Below, piece by piece: positions 1,216-59,664 of a stretch of DNA of 64,000 nt. The number at the start of each line of letters is the position of its first letter. Positions within the stretch are counted from its first letter, which is position 1. Under the pieces are notes generated by a model, which was not told where the DNA came from, made no database searches, and was given only the letters and a program-made list of their open reading frames with translations. The position numbers and the translations under genes are program-made. Source of the DNA: Chaetoderma sp. LZ-2023a (lineage: Eukaryota > Mollusca > Caudofoveata > Chaetodermatida > Chaetodermatidae); the NCBI GenBank assembly GCA_034401795.1, contig JAVVLW010002751.1, positions 1-64,000 of the forward strand, in the 5' to 3' direction.

Positions 1216-2837
1216 CTATTTATTGTCAATACAGTGATAGTTAGTTATATGTGGCAGCAGCCATCCTAGTTACTTGTTTTGTTTATATTATATAAAATAC
1301 TAGGACCGCAGTACGCTAGGCTACACTATACAGCAACAATAAATCCGCACTACCTTTTCCCCCAGCATCACTCTTTCACTGAGGTCACTGTTCAGGTTCT
1401 CTCATTAAGTGAACCTAACATATAATCGACGTAACCTGGCTATTCTAGCTCGATAGGATAGGTTTAAAAGTAGTTAGGGATGATCGCTCTTTAGGAGTCA
1501 CTTGTGTAAGCCTCTTGTCCAGATGTAGTGGATATGTAACACCGCACACCGGCTAGTTGAGTTAAATTGCCCATGTACCTTAGGGCCTCCTTATTAACAT
1601 ATGAGTGATTGTCTCTTCCTATGCTCCTCCAGCTACAAGGCTTATAATTGTCTGGACCTCCCTTCGTCATGTTGGTGCAATCTGACTCCGGAAACTATTG
1701 GTGTTTCCATGCGGTGAAGACCAAAGTGCCGATTCCGCAAACACCCCCTCTGTATCGTCGGACACTAGTTAGCATAGATATCCATGTCGAAGTAGGAAAC
1801 ACTGCGAAAACATATTATTTTAACCAGTCGGCAGTGCATCTCTGGGCATTTTAACATATCCCTAACGACAGGTAAATGTTAGTCTCCGGGTTCGGATCTC
1901 ACACGATCTGCTCCCGACACATCAGGTGATGGACAAGACACTGATCTCCATCTAACTCTTCACAATGACTGGGTGCGGTCTTGGAACCCACAACGCCCTC
2001 ACGAGAAGGTCACTATAGTTGGATATCTGTCTCCTCCTATCCACCATAAAACATATATGCGCTTTTCAATTGCTTACATAACTATGTCTTGTCCTAGTGA
2101 TGTTGTATGTGGTTGCGGTGTGGTAAGTAACAGGATCGTTATATGACATGTCCGCATGCTGTCTATCTGAGGCGGATGCTCCGTTGAGTGACCATATGGA
2201 AACCGATCATTTCTGCCACTCATTCTCATGTATTTAAAGATAGGTAGAAATCCAAGCGACTTGCGGCCTAAGCATGGAACATGGACCTAACAACTGAAGG
2301 TTAGTTTAGGATTTAGCAGAAGGACCACATAAATAAAGCGGCAAATACCAATACAGTATGTTTAACCCACATACGATGATGGTGTTGAATTCTCCGGAAA
2401 TCATCCACCCCATCTTCACGTAATACAGCGTGCATCACAATAACTTACAATTTCCCTAGGTTGGCTCGCACTACACGCTTAGTATATGTTTGAACAAGAG
2501 AGTGGCCCTTTTTGCCAACTCTCATCCTCCGCTTTGGCGTTGAAGGCATTTTCCTGTGACTGAGGCCCGGGCGAGGCACTTTCCTCTCGCAATAATAATA
2601 TTTTGTTAGGGTATAATGGTTTATATTAAACTTGATAAGTGACCGCGTTAGGACTCTCCCTTGCAGGGATACCTCGCGAATTTAAAGATCGGCGAGGTAC
2701 CTCTGATGAGCACTACGATAGGCAAGACACCAACTTAGTTCTATGTACTGTATTTTCTCTCTCATACTAGCAAATGAGTAGCATTGTTTGTATGTATCTA
2801 ATTATTTAGTAATTATGTCTAGATTCCAAAGGTGAGT

Positions 2838-3065
2838 AATGGACCGCCATACCAGTGACATGAACAGTCGGGATGAGTACAGTGTGGTTCGATCTCAGCG
2901 GCAATGGCTGCATAGCCCCACCGGAACTTTATCATTCAACCTGCTTTAGAAGTCAGTCTTTATATTTTCCGGCGAGTCGAAACACAAGATCCGTAACCCT
3001 GAGAACCGATGCTAACCAGCCAACATGCGCATCATGTATTTGTGGTGCTGCGAGATGGAATATAT
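2838..3065 (+). pseudogene. LINE ORF1 N-terminal fragment (copy A)
   Basis: The reading frame opens at the ATG at 2,838 with MDRHTSDMNSRDEYSVV, matching the ORF1 starts of copies B (MDCQTGDINSRDNTVV at 7,952) and C (MDRHTGDTNSWDETVV). A frameshift near 2,885 moves the match to another frame, which continues with APPE, RSQSL, TRSVT and CASCICGA, all with counterparts in B or C. Homology ends near 3,065, before the coiled-coil and RRM-like parts that B retains. It is therefore a non-functional N-terminal piece of an RNA-binding ORF1 protein. Confidence 0.65.
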
Positions 3066-3289
3066 GGACGGATATGGAGGCTAAAATATATATTTATCTA
3101 CCACTTGAACCATTGGGTCCAAGGATATCAATTTCAGAACAGTTCCACAGCTAAGCTGCCGAACACTCTTAGACCAGTGCAACGGACACCTTCGCTGTCA
3201 CATGCAGCTATGGCTCTGGTCAGACTAGCTTCCAAGTACTCAACAGAATACCTATAAATTGTAATATCAGTGCTCCAGCATCCATCGTG

Positions 3290-3490
3290 CATGGTGCTCG
3301 AACTGTAAGATGGCTGGAGGTGTATATGTGTTTGTGCCTGTACAAGAACCTTTCATACACATATTTATTCCTAGAATATGTGTGCTTATATGCACATTCG
3401 TACATGTGTACGTGTACGTGTACATATACACGTGGGTGTGTGATCTGGAACATTAGTGTGCAAATGCGCGTGCTTGCGTAAATGTGCTCG
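3290..3490. repeat. TG/CA-rich low-complexity spacer between LINE copies A and B
   Basis: The stretch holds irregular tgtg, tgtac and acatat runs, densest at 3,395-3,445. It sits between the truncated 3' ends of the two facing LINE copies. The short ORFs on both strands here are low-complexity by-products. Confidence 0.4.
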
Positions 3491-3760
3491 TGAGTTCTTG
3501 CATGTGCTTATTATATTAAAATCGAGATTAGCAACATTCACTTCTCTATCGGGCCTCGGCATATCTATACAGTTTTGTAACCGTTAATCGCTACCTATTT
3601 CAGTAATCGAATAAAATATCCAGACCCCTCTGTAATCCTTTTCTACTTTCTGACGGAATAATTATATCATCAGCATATAGAAAAAAAAAATTCATTTTCT
3701 AAATCATTCAAATACAGTGCGAATAAAAATGGCGACAGACTTTACACTTGACGACCCTCA

Positions 3761-3776
3761 CCCCACCCCCCCCCCC
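3761..3776. repeat. C-rich tract inside LINE B RT
   Basis: A short C run (poly-G on the coding strand) replaces glycine-rich codons just ahead of the LSPFLFALYLND motif and shifts the frame. Confidence 0.8.
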
Positions 3777-5462
3777 GCAGTACTGCATTCAAAATTGTCT
3801 GAGAGCATAGCATTAACCCGAACACATGTTTTTTATGTCTTGATGCATTGACATTATACTATTAATGATATATCCTTTTACATTTAACTTTATTAATTTG
3901 TACCACAAACAGTCTCGAATCACATAACCAAAAGCCTTTGGAAACAAAAGTGCAATATAATTTCTTTCCATTATTCAAAATGTTTGAAATCAAGTCATGC
4001 ATAACGAATGAGACCGGCCCTAAAACCAGCCTGTGCTTCGACATATACAGTGTTTTTATCTTCCCGGTCATTGAGACGATTATTGAGAACATTAGTGAAT
4101 AATTTGAAAAGGCAGCTCAATAACGTTATACCACGATAATTCTGTTCATCGTTTACATTGCCTTTTTTGTGAAGCGGTATTAGAATTCCTTCTGACCAAA
4201 TTCTGGGAAATATGCTGCTTTTAAAAATGTCATTAAAAAGTATTACAATATATGGTAAAGGTATTTCAATTCCATTTTTATAAAATTCATTTATCATCAA
4301 AACTGGCCCAGGGCTTTTACCATTATTGAGCTGCTGTATGGCTGTTTGTATCTCTATTTATGAAATTTCCTTATTTAACTCGTCGAATACTAATTGTACT
4401 TCACTTGTTTGGTACTCACGCGCAAGATCGACAATGTCTGTGTCAGCCCGATAAAAGCCCTTATCAGGGTTATTTAATCTTAAAAAAAAATTTTTAATTC
4501 ATATTTAAATGCGATGTTTCGGTTTTGTCGTCTCTGTACCAGTTCAACGCATTAAAAATTGTTTTCGTTTTATTTCACATGCCTGTGAGTAATGCTGTAT
4601 TTTTGTTCGCTTATTGTTTCGCAAAGTGATTGGTTTTCTCGTTTTCAGAATAAGTGTTCTGTTGCTTTATCAATTGCAGTATTGAATAGGGTCACCATTT
4701 GATTTACACCATCCTCATCTGGTTCCCTCCATTCCCTTATCAAACAATCCATTGTGTTTAGTAATTCTAAAGAATCAGGTTTTAACAAATTAGTCCTTTT
4801 GCATCCCAGATGTGTAATGGTAACTGCATTCTCTACTGTAGTTGTCCTCGCCCCTGCTCGTGTATTCATTAATATATCACATCTTACTACTGTATGATCA
4901 GCCAACTCATTTGTGTGTTCTATTTCAAAATTGGGTAATAGCCTTGAATTATTTGCAGAGCAAAGAGAGTAATCTACAAATATAGGACCACATGCAGTCG
5001 ATCCATACCCACTCTGCCATTGACGATCCTAATCACTATAGTTTTACAGAAATTTAACAAATTATGCCCATTTTCATTTAACTTCCCCAAGTCTTTAGAA
5101 CATCTTCCTATCATACAATCCTCATCATAACTAACTTCTATTGAAATATAGTTTACATTGTCATCTTCGGTAAAATCCGGTAGAGCTTTGGTTCTGGCAC
5201 TTAAGTCGCCACAAATTAAAAATGTACAATTTCTATCCTCAAGAATATTCGTATTTACATACAATGACAGTCTTTAAAACACATCAATATCTACATGAGC
5301 TGTTCTCGACGAACCATTAAGAAGTACATAACACAGAGCAATATATAAATTCTCATCTAAACCATAGAATAATTGATCAGTTTTTGTCCATATAATGTCA
5401 TCAGATTCTTTACTTTCTATAGAGACACCGGCTGCTATTTGGTCCCTAAAATAAATTAGAAG

Positions 5463-22427: not shown

Positions 22428-22749
<322 letters not shown>

Positions 22750-28344: not shown

Positions 28345-29815
28345 ATTTTTATGTACAAAATATGCTCAGTAGTACTTCCTTGAGTGTAAATAAAAACTGT
28401 GATACGAATCCTTGGCTAGTGGCTCTCTATTTGCCGGCCAAGAGAAGAGGATTTTTGGTAAATGAGCCAGTCATTCAAGTAGTAAATTTTCAAAAATCGC
28501 CTCCTTGGCATGCAAATGGACATTCACAATTCAGATTTTCATCACAAATCGTGGCCAATAGAGGGCGAACGCCAATGTCATATACATAATATTAACAATT
28601 CATACTGACTGTAAGTAAAAACTGTAATACCACTTCGTGGTTAGTGAATCTCTATTTGCCGTCAAGAGAAAATTTTTTAAAATTTACCACCTGAAGGACT
28701 GACTTGGTAAATGAGCCAGTCATTCAAGTAGTAAATAAAAAAAATTGAAAACGAATTTTGAAAATTTACCACCTGAAGGACTGACTTGGTAAATGAGCCA
28801 GTCATTCAAGTAGTAAATAACAAAAATTGAAAACGAATTTTGAAAATTTACCACCTGACTGACTGACTCTGTAAATGAGCCAGTCATTCAAGTAGTAAAT
28901 AAAAAAAAATTGTCTCCTTGGCGTGCAAATGGACATTCACGAATCGTGGCCGATAGAGGGCGAACTCTGATGTCATATACATAATATTAATAATTCATAC
29001 TCATTTTTATGTACAAAATATGCTCACTAGTACTTCTTCGACTGTAAGTAAAAACTGATGCGAAACCGTGGCTAGTCAATCTCTATTTGCCAGCCAAGAG
29101 AAGACAGATTTTGAAAATTTACCACCTGACTGACTGACTCTGTAAATGAGCCAGTCATTCAAGTAGTAAATTTTCAAAAATTGTCTCCTTGGCATGCAAA
29201 TGGACATTCACGAATCAACGTTCAGATTTTCATCCCAAATCGTGGCCAATAGATGGCGAACTCTGATGTCATATACAGATTATCAATAATTTATACTCAT
29301 TTTTATGTACAAAATATGCTCACTAGTACTTCCTTGACTGTAAGTAAAACTGTAATACCACTTCATGGCTAGTGAATCTCTATTTGCCGAGAAGCGGTAA
29401 TTTTAGAAAATTTACCACCTGAATGACTGACTCGGTAAATGAGCCAGTCATTCAAGTAGTAAATTTTCTAGAATCGTCTCCTTGGCATGCAAATGGACAT
29501 TCACGATTCAGATTTTCATCACAAATCGTGGCCAATAGAGGGCGAACTCTGATGTCATATACATAATATTAATAATTCATACTCATTTTTATGTACAAAA
29601 TGTGCTCACTAGTACTGCCTTGACTGTAAGTAAAAACTGATACGAAACGTTGGCTAGTGAATCTCTATTTGCCAGCAAAGAGAAGACCAACAAATTACCA
29701 CCTAAATGACTGACTCGGCAAATGAGCCAGTTATTCAAGTAGCAATTCTTTAAAGAGTGTCTTCTTGGCCTGCATATGGACATTCACTAAGCAAAATGTG
29801 TGGCATGGACAGATT
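28345..29815. repeat. Satellite of about 290-bp monomers centred on a palindrome
   Basis: Monomer starts ('ttttatgtacaaaatatgct') lie at about 28,349, 29,007, 29,303 and 29,589, so clean monomers are about 286-296 bp. Each holds 'ctatttgccggccaagagaa', a palindromic core ('aaatttaccacctgaatgac' against 'gtcattcaagtagtaaattt'), 'ccttggcatgcaaatggaca', and 'cgtggccaatagagggcgaa'. One monomer is enlarged: the core is repeated three times at 28,681, 28,763 and 28,845 with an 82-bp period. Confidence 0.85.
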
Positions 29816-37346: not shown

Positions 37347-37470
37347 TCCGTTTGCAGACCAAGAGAGGACTATTTTTGAAAATTTACCACTGGAATGACT
37401 GGCTCGATAAACGAGGCAGTCACTCCAGTGGTAAGTTTTCAAGGATAGTCTTCTCTGGCTCTGTAATTAC
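37347..37470. repeat. Palindromic MITE-like element (18.7-kb family)
   Basis: 'gaggactatttttgaaaatt' and 'taccactggaatgactggct' are mirrored by 'ggcagtcactccagtggtaa' and 'caaggatagtcttctctggc'. Confidence 0.7.
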
Positions 37471-37941: not shown

Positions 37942-38050
37942 AACAAGACTATTTTTGAAAATGTACCACTGAACTGACTGGTGCGGTAACCGAACCAGTC
38001 ATTCCATCGAAAATTTTCAAATATAAATTTCTCTCGAACTGTAAATGAAC
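37942..38050. repeat. Palindromic MITE-like element (18.7-kb family)
   Basis: 'aagactatttttgaaaatgt' and 'accactgaactgactgg' are mirrored by 'ccagtcattccatcgaaaat' and 'aaatttctctcgaactgtaa'. Confidence 0.7.
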
Positions 38051-53335: not shown

Positions 53336-54439
53336 ATGCATGAAGCTGGTGGGCATGCGGGAAAACTTGCCAATGTAGGTTAATATTTGATAACAATAAG
53401 CGGCAAATTTAGTCAAATATATTAATGCAATAAAGCGATGCCCGTCATCGCGGAAAAAACTAATACAGGTGATATGTTCTTAATATCTAATGTAATTTGA
53501 CGCCAACATTACAGCTCTTATCTCGATAGAGATATATTATGTCATTGTATCTACTCTGGTCTTAATGCGAATGATCAAGGTATTCCTGGTCTTTGTTTCG
53601 GGCTAGCCATAATAGATAGACTCCTCACATTGTAAGTGTGTAAGCCTTTCCAGGCCGTTATTAGACAATACTAGACAAATACAACTGGTAACCTTTGTGA
53701 ATAAATTTTTAAGGCAGCACGTTAACACATAAAAAATAAGCATTACTTCCCATGCGTGACTGGCCATGAGCCACGCAACTATGTTCAAATATACATGTTC
53801 ATTGATAATTTCAATATAATTGCAATTAAATCAAATTTGCATAATAATTCTGGGATAAATTGTGTGTATTATTATTAAATATGAATTTGATTTATATGAA
53901 AACAAATTTACGAACTCTTTCGAAATTAATCTGTGATCAATGTGCCGGATTCGAGTCGAAAACTAGCATGTACCACTTAGAGGAATAGGCCGAGTAGTAA
54001 ATACGAAAATGAATTCGGCACGCGTCAAGCGTGCGCGTACGAACAAATACCTTTGATCAGAGCAGGGCGTAATTGACCTGAATTAACGTAGGTGATTATA
54101 AATAAAAAATGACTAAATAATTAACGATTTATAGTCTTCGGCTACGGAATATAAAAACCCCAAGAATATTGGCTTGTTTTCTGTCTAACCTAAATTTAGC
54201 TTTTTGAAATAAAATTCCAGTGACTTTCAATGGCGCTGCTGGCTGTATTATGTGTGACGTCACATTATATGTGTGACGTCAGACTATTAATGATTTAATT
54301 AATTTAGGGATATGATGGGTTAATCCAGTATTACCATTTATTCGCGATCCACTGGCCATGTATTCCATACATTCATGATCATGAAATAAACCTCTGATCG
54401 GGTAGTTCCGAATTCATATGCTAATTATGCTCTTGGCTG
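53336..54439. other. Unassigned sequence
   Basis: AT-rich, no gene seen. Two TGTGACGTCA motifs lie at 54,252-54,261 and 54,271-54,280. Confidence 0.45.
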
Positions 54440-54442
54440 TAA

Positions 54443-54605
54443 TAGTCCAGTAAAACTACAAATTAACCTAGAACAAATTGCAACAGAATTTATTTCTTTT
54501 CTGCGGCATTCATGGGACTGCCAGGTGTCACATATCAAAAGTCCTCCAAAATCCCTCGATGGGAAAGTGGGTAAATTCGCATATTTAGCTACCGCCATTA
54601 TCCGA
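54443..54605 (+). repeat. Left terminal inverted repeat
   Basis: Shared with the right TIR in reverse complement: TAGTCCAGT, 'gaacaaattgcaaca', 'catatcaaaagtcctccaaa' and 'gcata'. The two arms differ by substitutions and small indels. Confidence 0.8.
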
Positions 54606-54678
54606 ATAATGAAACTTCCCTTACCTGCTTCATTCCGCAAATAAACGAAGTAGAAATGTTGTCTAAGCTCTGAATTTC

Positions 54679-56409
54679 ATGGTCACGGAAGATATCAAGC
54701 AAGTTGGCAAGATCTGTATCAGGAACTTTGAGTCTCAACATACCAGGAACTTCCCATTGACCTTTAAGGAGTTAACTGCGATGGAACAAACAGACCCAAC
54801 AGCTGACATTGACATCCTCTGGGATTTCTCTTTGTTTCTGCGTTCAAGGAGACAGTCATGGTCTGGCATGATGCAAACTGTTCACCAAGGAGTTTATCCA
54901 GGTAAATCGTCTGTTATTTTCCTTCCGATGATAGATCTAGAGCCAAGTAACATGACCTGCATCTTTTCCACTTTGACTTATGTTTGTGAACAGGCAAACC
55001 GATACCATGTTGCACCCGTGATTACATTTAATCAGCCCTTATTTTGGAAAGCTATGACTATCATAGAGATTGAGCCGAGCTGGAGTCCATTAAAGCAAAT
55101 TATTCTAAGACTCGGAGGTCTTCATATGGAGATGAGCTTCCTTGGCTGCATTGGTCACTTAATGGCAGGAAGCGGTCTTGCACCTATTCTAGAGGTAGTC
55201 TACGCTGAGAATGCTGTCAAACACATTCTTAGTGGAAAGGCAATTTCTCGAGCAGTTCGAGGACACCTCATGGTTTTTGCTTCTCTCAGTACAATTTTGA
55301 TTGCAAATGCATACAACCTACCACTACCTACAATTGCAGATGCTGAAGTTGACACAGTAGAATATTCCGCTGCAATGCATTCAAAAGAATTGTTTGACAA
55401 TGATGATAATGTTGCAGGACATGAAACGATTGAAAGTTCCCTAAATAAAAGTCTGGTTAAAGTTGGAGAGCTCTATGATGACATTATCAAAAATCCGTAT
55501 GTAGCTACAAGATTGTCGTCGGAAAATGCATTACATGATGTCAAGGACAAACTAGACTCAGAGAAGGTGGTCATGAAAGATAAGAGGACTGCACGACTCT
55601 GGCTTTTGTATATGGAGTTGGTTGACATTCTGCGTAAATTCATTAAGGCAGAACGAACTGGTGATTGGAGCATGCACCTTCAGACCGTTCGTGAGATGCT
55701 TCCATATTTTGCAGCCGCTGAGCATAATCTGTACGCCAAGTCTGCATATGTATATTTACAAAAGATGTTAGAAATACCTGAAAGTCATCCAGATATACAC
55801 ACCAGCTTCCTCAATGGTCATCATGTCATTCATCGAAGTGATAGGTATTGGGCAGGGTTATCTACTGATCTAGTTATTGAGCAGGTCCTTATGAGAAGTG
55901 TAAAGTCAAGTGGTGGTCTAACACGAGGTCGTGGAATGACAGAGCTTCAGCGTCTTGTTTGGTTGTTGTCTATGCCCGCATGTGCAGATGTGTGGAATGC
56001 AATGCAAGAGCTCTCTGGGGTAAACTGTGATTCAAATGAACAACACAAAGATTCTACACAATCTCGAATAAAGCGTGATATGGATGATACTTACAAAATT
56101 CTCAAAATCCTTAGTGAACTGAATCCATTTGGACCAGACCCTTCTCTTAGAGGACTTGTTAGTGGATTGTCTGCACATGAATCAGTCAATGTTGACGATG
56201 CTAAAGCTATTGGAGAATCAATTATTAATTCGATGTGTGGCCAATGTGTATCAAGCATTTCGTTCCAGAGAAAGAGACAAGCTATTACCTTAGCATCCAA
56301 AACATCTCTCAAGATTGATGATGAATGTGTACAAATTGATCCACAACTCCTATTTCAAAGACTCAGTTTAATTGCTACAAATGGAACAAAAGGGAATCCA
56401 TCATCTTAA
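54679..56409 (+). pseudogene. Transposase-like protein, N-terminal part
   Basis: An open frame of 576 codons starts at an ATG 75 bp inside the TIR. It belongs to a large multicopy 'uncharacterized protein' family of invertebrates. Motifs: SVIFLPMIDLEPSNMTCIFS, VITFNQPLFWKAM, ILRLGGLHMEMSFLGCIGHL, LSGKAISRAVRGHL, then MLPYFAAAEHNLYAKSAYVY, SDRYWAGLSTDLVIEQVLM and GGLTRGRGMTELQRLVWLLS, MASK-like ASKTSLKIDD and DPQLLFQRL. I recall TFDQPL in relatives, so this copy has Asn at a probable catalytic Asp. The family normally continues in the same frame; here TAA at 56,407-56,409 stops it. Confidence 0.75.
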
Positions 56410-57722
56410 TTTGAGCATGAGTTGTGCACTCATCCGCCCGCACTCTTTGATAATTCATCTCTTCCATGGGAAGCAAATAAGCCGGCACTTCCTGATGCAT
56501 TGTGGAAATTAATTCAAAATGAAGATGCAGTCCTTCCAGATTCTGTCCACTATGTGCTTGATTGAGGAGCTCTATTACACCGTGTTCCATGGCAGCGTGG
56601 AGAGAGATTTGCAAATGTTTGTCAAAGATATGTAAAATATTGCATAAGCAAATATGGAATGGCTACAGTAGTTTTTGATGATTATGACCAAGGCCCAGAC
56701 ATAAAAGATGTAACACATAAGAGGCGAACTCGTGGATCAGGCGCAACTGTTGTACTGACTCCGCAAACAGTTGTAACTCTGAGTAAGCCTGATTTTCTTA
56801 GTAACAAGCAGAACAAACATCGGTTCATATCAATCTTAAGTTCATCTCTCGAACAGGCTGGATGCTTAACGATAAAGGCAAGCGGTGGTGCTGATGTCTT
56901 AATTACGCAAACGGCTATCTTGGATTCAAAGTCAACAAATACTGCTCTTGTTGGAGACGATGCCGACCTACTGGTGTTGCTTCTATACCATACTGATATG
57001 AATGGCTGTCAGCTATTTTTCAGACCAGAGCCAAAGCAAAATGCAAAGAAACCCCGACTGTGGAATATCAAAATGGCAAATGAAAAACTCGGGTTCTGTT
57101 TGTGCTCACAGCTGTTATTTATCCATGCTATCCTTGGCTGTACTCAGCATCTAGGCTTTATGGAATTGGAAAATCTGCATCCCTTAGCACAATCCAGTGC
57201 TGCAAAGAACTCTCTCAAATTGCTGAAGTGTTTACAATGAGTAATGCGAATAAAGATGACGTGATAAAAGCAGGTGAGAAGGCAATGCTTATTCTATACA
57301 ATGGCACTTCAATGGATAGTCTAGTTGCTTTGCGGTACAAGCGATTCAGGGAGAAGGTTGCAAAAAGTTCCAAGTATGTTGAAGCACGAGATTTACCACC
57401 AACACCTGCATCCGCAAAGTTTCACAGTCTTCGCGTGTACTACCAAATTCAAGTTTGGAGAGGAGATGCTGGAGATATGGATCCAACAGAATGGGGCTGG
57501 AAAGTTCTCAACCACCAAATGCTGCCTGTTAAGTCTGACATGCTGGCAGCACCTGACGATTTACTGTATTCATTTAGATGCAGCTGCAAAAGTGGCTGTG
57601 AATCAAAGAGATGCACCTGTAGAAAACATGGGCTCAGCTGCACATCCGCCTGCGAAGACTGTAAGGGTCTCAGTTGCTCGAATTCAATAACGCTCATTGA
57701 GGAAGATGACTTGGATAATTGA
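56410..57722 (+). pseudogene. Transposase-like protein, C-terminal part: PIN/XPG-like and CXC-type modules
   Basis: It continues in frame after the TAA: FEHELCTHPPALFDNSSLPW, a TGA near 56,563, then ALLHRVPWQRGERF and TVVFDDYDQGPDIKDVTHKR. A PIN/XPG-like core has ALVGDDADLLVLLLYHTD followed by LFFRPEPKQNAKKPRLWNIK and HAILGC. Near 57,140 the frame shifts by one base and goes on with SRLYGIGKSASL, RYKRFREKVAKSSKYVEARD, KFHSLRVYYQIQVWRGDAGD and EEWGWK-like TEWGWKVL. The end is a cysteine cluster, CSCKSGCESKRCTCRKHGLS then CTSACEDCKGLSCSN, ending at TGA 57,720-57,722. Together with the first part it makes about 1,014 residues. Confidence 0.75.
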
Positions 57723-58013
57723 TGCAAGATGAAATTAGTAGAAACCAGGTACCTATGCCATACTATTTCATCTTAGCTTAGCTTAGAAACACACAATACC
57801 GTGACATAATAAAATATAATATGTATTGTATCAATATCAATGATGGTATTAGGTAAATTCATGCAAGTGGCATAACACAATACATTTAATTTGTGGAGAA
57901 TATGTCAATCGTATTCATTTATTACTAAAAAAGTCCAAAAATACCCAGTCACACATATATTACATACCGGTTTTAAAGAAATAAAGAAAAATGGATTTTT
58001 CAGGTGAAATGGC

Positions 58014-58179
58014 CCAAATCTGGTAATAATTATGCAAATTTTACCCTTTCCCCTATTGGAATTTTGGAGGACTTTTGATATGTTGTACATGATGGCCCCC
58101 TATACACTGGGCGAGGTAAAAAAATTATGTTGCAATTTGTTCCGGGTTAAAATATTTTTTGCCTAGATTGACTGGACTA
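58014..58179 (-). repeat. Right terminal inverted repeat
   Basis: Mirror of 54,443-54,605; ends ACTGGACTA at 58,179. Confidence 0.8.
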
Positions 58180-58182
58180 TAA

Positions 58183-58780
58183 CTGATTACCACAAAGTAT
58201 AGAATTGTTCGATCTGTCCTAGCGGTCTAAGTCCATCCCACTATGTAACTCGGTGAACTATTGATCGATCTACTGTTTTTGAAGTCCCTGTACAGTAGAC
58301 TAGGCATCAATATTACTTAAAATTAACACGGCTTGTTAATTGCATATGATTGGCGCCGTTATGATTGGAAAAATAGTCCCTCTAGATTTTATTATATTGG
58401 TCAATTTAATTGTATAATTATTAATTTTTCTTGTATAATTATTATTTTTGAGATTCTATTTTCCAGTGAATTTTATCAAATTTTTTATATGATAAGATTG
58501 CCACCATGTTTAGGCATTATATGGACGTCGACGCATTTATACATCAAACCATGTGCTCGTTCATCAATCACGTGACAGTGTGTTGGTGGGAAGATCGCCA
58601 ACTCCCACTCATCAGTTCGAAACATATCTCTAAGCGGCTCACACGTCATCTAGGAGCCACTTATTTTCAAGAGTCCACGAACTCACCATGTAAAAATGTT
58701 AATGTAATAGTGTGCCTGTGTCATCCCGTCTTTGTCATCGTCTCAATGTAATCATCGTCATCAGCCATCAGTCGAGTTTA
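58183..58780. other. Unassigned sequence right of the TIR element
   Basis: No gene or repeat recognised. Confidence 0.45.
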
Positions 58781-58781
58781 G

Positions 58782-59010
58782 CTACCCGTGACTCCATCAA
58801 TTTAATCGTCATCAAACCAAATCTCAAAGCAAGCGGAACCTGGTGCCTTGCTTAGGTGGGTAGTAGTCTAAATTCCCTACCCGTGACGTCATCAATCTCA
58901 TCACCTTCAGACCAACTCCCAAAGCAAGCAGAACCTGGTACCTTGTTTGGGTAGGTAGAACTCTATCTTTTCCACCTGTGATGTCATCAATCTCGTCATC
59001 TTCACCACGC
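58782..59010 (+). repeat. Tandem repeat of about 95 bp, about 2.4 copies
   Basis: Units begin 'ctacccgtgactccatcaat' (58,782), 'ctacccgtgacgtcatcaat' (58,877) and 'ccacctgtgatgtcatcaat' (58,971). Each contains 'caaagcaagcggaacctggt' or a close variant. Confidence 0.8.
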
Positions 59011-59664
59011 TTTCATCCTTCTGAAATGTTCAGACTTTATTAGCGATTGCTGTCATCTTTTCGATTCTCCGCCATCTTTCGGCCTCGAACTTCTGTATCG
59101 GTAACTATGCTAGGTTATCACACGAATCATCTCAGTGTCTTCGAGCTTCTCAATTGAATATCTCGGATCATCTTAGTGCCTTCGTTTCTATTTCGGAAAA
59201 CAGAACATTCTTCCGGTTTCGTCATCCGTTTCTTCATATGTGTTTTCACTCCCGGTGCCACGACAGATTGGATCTTCATGTGTTCGCCTTCATTCCGTGA
59301 CCGGACTTCTGTGTTCAGCATATTTAACGTATCGAAACTTTAACTGTGATTTCTCAAAATTATTTACCATACACCCCGACCAACTCGCGTGGTGCCGAGA
59401 CTGTCCAGATTTTTACTTATGTAACCATATTTCAAAATATTCTATAAGTAAATTTCCATACTTATTATTGAAATATTTCTATTTAAATTGATTGAATATT
59501 TGTTTCAATTTGTTGTTATTACGTCATTTGTCCAAGTTCAAATAACCAACACTCATTCAGTAATCATCATGTACACTTAGTTAGTTTCTAGTTCCAAGGC
59601 CTGAGTAACTAATCACCCAATTCATAACGTAAGTTCTAGATTGGATGATTGGTTCATCAGTCTT

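Follow-up and report, generated by a model that had tools for sequence, protein, structure and literature searches.

The window analysed here, a 64,000-nucleotide stretch from the genome of Chaetoderma sp. LZ-2023a, a worm-like deep-sea caudofoveate mollusc, carries a DNA transposon at positions 54443-58179, with TAA directly outside either end. We conclude, with a probability of roughly 85%, that it is a decayed, non-autonomous copy, with an internal deletion, of a cut-and-paste element of the Academ superfamily (AcademX type), the full-length form of which is about 5.4 kb long, ends in terminal inverted repeats (TIRs) of about 165 bp and contains a single intronless gene for a protein of about 1,484 amino acids. 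This figure applies to identity and architecture; we are less sure of the place of the encoded nuclease in the reaction. The features, in window coordinates, are as follows.

54440-54442, strand not applicable: left target-site duplication (TSD), TAA (copy comparison)
54443-54605, + strand: left TIR, starting with TAGTCCAG (genome matches; inverted-repeat alignment to the right end)
54687-54688, + strand: internal deletion junction (alignment to the full-length copy L070; common to insertions L051, L052 and L060)
54688-57719, + strand: transposase gene remnant, residues 474-1484 of 1,484 (alignment to L070)
55030-55032, + strand: site of the putative second catalytic Asp of the DDE domain (D588, T-F-D-Q-P-L motif), Asn here
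55879-55881, + strand: candidate catalytic Glu E871 (D-L-V-I-E-Q motif), on the long helix after the helical insertion
56560-57191, + strand: predicted core of a FEN1/EXO1/XPG-type 5' nuclease, spanning about residues 1098-1308; the frame breaks at 57142
57579-57677, + strand: CXC-type cysteine cluster, C1438-C1470, nine Cys (each Cys in 81-83 of 83 aligned sequences)
58014-58179, + strand: right TIR, ending with CTGGACTA (genome matches at 99-100%)
58180-58182, strand not applicable: right TSD, TAA (copy comparison)

The two ends are imperfect inverted repeats of each other with TAGTCCAG termini. Aligned over 163 x 166 bases, they agree at 122 positions and score 124, whereas the highest score among 200 single-base shuffles was 45. 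A preliminary description, made from the window alone, had placed the element between inverted repeats of about 160 bp with TAA on both sides, and its limits, termini and TAA were found exactly as described. It had also proposed searching the genome for other copies and empty sites. In the Chaetoderma sp. assembly (2.44 Gb, 2,753 contigs, the window being on contig 1499), the best 40 of 960 left-end candidates scored were all 100% identical over 163 bp; among the best 40 of 1,044 right-end candidates, 2 were identical at 100% and 38 at 99%. These candidate totals, like the 12,876 given below for the protein, are loose first-look places and not a copy count. The flanks of the copies differ and diverge right up to TAGTCCAG and CTGGACTA, and no TIR-like sequence was seen to run past TAGTCCAG into shared flanks.

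The same insertion is present on contig C508 at 100% identity, and as 1 kb of flank on each side is identical too (window 53443-59179), haplotype duplication or duplication in the assembly may account for the window. Shortly beyond the element lie 2.3 copies of a 95-bp tandem repeat unit (window 58782-59004).

Insertions were inspected at 31 places. Both termini were located as expected at 28, one end was not found where expected at 3, and no copies of the protein lacking these TIRs were seen among the places inspected. At the 28 two-ended places, the TSD measured 3 bp in 26 and 4 bp (TATA) in one, and one showed a 2-bp match only. With the window copy and its C508 duplicate counted as one, there are 27 independent insertions, of which 25 have a 3-bp TSD, one has a 4-bp TSD and one shows no 3- or 4-bp match; random re-pairing of flanks gave a mean of 3.4 and a maximum of 11 matches in 10,000 trials, compared with the 25 observed. 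The duplicated triplets are of 13 kinds (TTA and TAA five times each, CTA four times, TAT twice and nine more once each). Thus, the 3-bp length in the preliminary description holds for nearly all insertions, whereas TAA is merely one triplet among 13. Moreover, an empty site was found: the repeat in which one insertion (L051/L113/L114) sits has a further genomic copy, situated within L024, that lacks the insertion and has a single TAT in its place. It follows that insertion is precise and the boundaries are genuine.

Three full-length copies, fetched with both ends (L069, L070 and L071), measure 5,383-5,385 bp and contain one long intronless open reading frame (ORF), which in L070 encodes 1,484 residues between its ATG and its stop codon. 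A Mercenaria relative was used as query to score 32 copies; the matched stretch is free of stops in 8 of them and contains one to three in the other 24. The best 76 of 12,876 candidates scored as protein matches to the window piece are 97-100% identical, and since this holds for all 76, the family looks young; scoring covered the best candidates only, and older copies are thus unrepresented. The repeat table for Chaetoderma sp. printed in PMC10810820 gives 18,303 Academ copies (13.7 Mb, 0.56%), to which the window element is linked by abundance and kind only.

Relative to L070, the window copy consists of full-length positions 1-245 fused to 1893-5385; it carries 34 mismatches and lacks one base, while positions 246-1892 (1,647 bp) are deleted, and GAAGA is common to both sides of the breakpoint. 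It keeps residues 474-1484; with the first 473 it has lost the Cys/His sites of the N terminus as well as strands one and two of the DDE core, and the ATG at 54679 differs from the true start of the family. The remaining ORF is broken by two in-frame stops (one ending at 56409, one starting at 56563) and a 1-bp frameshift at 57142. In addition, six family-invariant positions are damaged: a stop falls on one of them, and substitutions affect the other five, including the second DDE Asp and one nuclease Asp. Judged by its sequence, the window copy is an inactivated, non-autonomous internal-deletion derivative and not a complete element, which was overlooked in the preliminary description. The same junction is found in three other insertions with different flanks (L051, L052 and L060), while at the six damaged positions compared none of these three has the change seen in the window copy. 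As the junction is shared by four insertions and the damage is private to the window copy among them, we infer that an ancestral deletion derivative moved first, probably mobilised in trans by protein from full-length copies, and that the window copy decayed afterwards.

The database search yielded 373 relatives at E ≤ 0.001. The 120 matches listed are 42-66% identical to the L070 protein, most of them over at least 94% of its length, the exception being P0001, which is encoded on a 5,412-bp contig from a JGI metagenome and is 100% identical to the L070 transposase. Hosts, named for a minority of the listed rows, are Porites, Mercenaria, Mytilus, Patella, Littorina, Mizuhopecten, Argopecten, Pinctada and Lytechinus. 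The relatives are called 'uncharacterized', 'hypothetical', 'unnamed' or 'Tesmin/TSO1-like CXC domain-containing', and three from metagenomes (P0051, P0076 and P0124) '5'-3' exonuclease'. The earlier proposal that a widespread family of 'uncharacterized' proteins belongs to a TIR-bounded cut-and-paste element is borne out by these relatives, the paired ends and the empty site. Viral contigs were also scanned for relatives together with their flanks, and none of the 44 pattern matches obtained proved to be a relative.

Conservation was assessed in an alignment of 83 sequences, namely L070 and 82 relatives picked from the 120 listed; numbers in brackets are given where a residue is nearly invariant. 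Near the N terminus, C8 (80), C11 (82), H52 and C55, and C95, C98 (82), H159 and C162 (81), would by their pattern constitute two zinc-type sites. The residues D432, D435, D442, D588, H619 and E871 are conserved in all 83. They lie in a region that is modelled as an RNase-H-like fold with a helical insertion, D588 being just past the fourth core strand and E871 in model helix 567-584. A Foldseek search of this model against the PDB gave no significant match, whereas a second structure aligner did, its best fold matches being the P element, Transib, Hermes and RAG1. The domain is best described as a predicted DDE-type RNase-H fold, with D588 as the putative second Asp and E871 as the candidate Glu. 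The RNase-H-like fold suspected in the preliminary description thus agrees with the model, but its position is central in the full protein, not N-terminal.

The C-terminal domain is modelled as a FEN1/EXO1/XPG-type nuclease, and all seven active-site acids expected of this type are kept in the family (D1098 (82), D1137, D1207, D1209, D1231, D1233 (82) and D1292). In contrast to FEN1, EXO1 and XPG, it shares one chain with a transposase, which precedes it, and with the CXC cluster, which comes after it, and it has Asp rather than Glu at the E158/E160 positions. The PIN/XPG-like module and the CXC cluster of the preliminary description are consistent with the modelled fold, these acids and the nine conserved Cys.

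Among 30 relatives compared with Pfam at E ≤ 0.01, no transposase family was matched; only DUF6589 was obtained, in 6 of the 30 and below its cut-off (best 26.4 bits, cut-off 27). Precomputed Pfam labels place DUF6589 on P0016, P0124 and P0169, and the weak match in P0016 spans the helical insertion and the catalytic-Glu half of the putative DDE domain, hinting that DUF6589 may be part of this transposase family. A sub-threshold XPG_I match occurs in P0086, and a weak TNT match in one of the 30 was taken as chance. NCBIfam gave two weak, unrelated matches in one of three proteins. In the literature search, no text contained Academ and XPG together as whole words, and none mentioned DUF6589.

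In the mechanism that we propose, the Cys/His sites and the CXC cluster would bind DNA or the TIRs, the DDE domain would cut the 3' ends and join them to the target with a 3-4-nt stagger, and the nuclease domain would cut or trim the 5'-ended strand. In Tn7, strand processing is split between two proteins, TnsB and TnsA, an analogue of this DDE/nuclease division. We suggest, tentatively and at somewhat under even odds, that one eukaryotic transposase chain, from a family whose relatives include proteins of cnidarians, molluscs and an echinoderm, unites a P-element-like DDE domain and a catalytically complete FEN1/EXO1-type nuclease in a Tn7-like division of labour, and that part of DUF6589 is likely to represent this family. 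With the rest of the interpretation unchanged, the FEN-like domain might instead work after strand transfer, in 5' flap trimming or in helping gap repair, and not in excision. This has a serious claim, if short of an even chance: the substrates of FEN1/EXO1 relatives are 5' flaps and recessed ends, in line with the titles of the matched structures, while the TSD difference between AcademX and AcademH, as printed, is compatible with either timing of the nuclease.

The AcademX lineage reportedly goes back to a defining paper by Kojima in 2020 and to Repbase; its nuclease is of the XPG type. As printed in PMC10045372, AcademX has TSDs of 3 or 4 bp and AcademH of 9 or 10 bp, a difference related to the encoded nuclease or helicase. 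Because its TSD (3 bp in 25 and 4 bp in one of the 27 independent insertions) and its encoded nuclease (FEN/EXO1/XPG fold and acids) match this description, to which the DDE transposase (RNase-H-like model with invariant acids) adds a further likeness, the Chaetoderma family fits the AcademX type and shows no difference from it, by description and not by sequence comparison with reference Academ proteins. Moreover, its full length of 5,383-5,385 bp is near the mean of 5,565 bp that PMC10294476 gives for curated bivalve Academ elements (100 in the library). On the other hand, the molluscs surveyed in that account had Academ almost nowhere outside the bivalves, whereas the Chaetoderma family is abundant in a caudofoveate.

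A distinct superfamily, akin to but outside Academ, in which a P/hAT-like DDE transposase and a FEN-type nuclease were combined independently, seems unlikely. Two points weigh in its favour and against our assignment: the lack of any Pfam transposase match in the 30 members save sub-cut-off DUF6589, and the fact that Academ kinship rests on description, not on a reference sequence. TSD length and nuclease (PMC10045372), element length (PMC10294476) and the listing of Academ in the host annotation (PMC10810820) all agree with Academ, within what these sources print. The preliminary description had left Academ uncertain and considered a distinct group; Academ is now the better supported of the two.

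Within the superfamily, AcademH was rejected mainly because 27 of the 28 two-ended places have 3-4 bp and not the printed 9-10 bp; AcademH encodes a helicase and the Chaetoderma element a nuclease, and for the single ORF no helicase match was obtained in Pfam with 30 relatives at E ≤ 0.01. KDZ/Zisupton elements have 8-bp TSDs and were likewise rejected mainly on the 3-4-bp TSD; none of the 30 matched KDZ in Pfam, and a CXC cluster alone is not diagnostic of this group. The Drosophila P element transposase is closest in fold (10% identity over the alignment), but the P element was rejected mainly on TSD, its own being 8 bp; it lacks a FEN-type nuclease, and no THAP match was obtained in Pfam among the 30. 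Finally, a PIF/Harbinger-type element, with a 3-bp TSD restricted to TTA/TAA and a two-protein layout, would account for TAA at the window insertion and for TTA or TAA in 10 of the 25 independent 3-bp TSDs, but is highly improbable, being strongly disfavoured above all by the other triplets in 15 of the 25, and also by the single nuclease-bearing protein and by the absence of a Harbinger DDE family from the Pfam matches of the 30 relatives, although absence of a match is no proof.

Elsewhere, the window contains tandem arrays whose units measure 82 bp and 286 bp, together with short inverted repeats that include GAGCCAGTCATTCAAGTAGTAAATTTTC-like sequence (28674-29787, 37352-37466 and 37945-38017); similar sequence adjoins the L052 copy of the transposon. 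A GTA triplet array of about 105 copies lies at 22431-22744.

This kind of transposon has already been named, and the Chaetoderma element is a clear, well-bounded example of it. Proteins known as 'uncharacterized', 'Tesmin/TSO1-like CXC domain-containing' or '5'-3' exonuclease' can now be read as a transposase for which the element ends and the structure of the copies are defined and an architecture of two enzymes is modelled, and the annotated protein sets of several invertebrates carry the transposon as apparent genes. An Academ-kind family is abundant in a caudofoveate, beyond the bivalves emphasized in the survey as printed (PMC10294476), and its nearly identical ends, together with several open reading frames, bring AcademX transposition within reach of testing.
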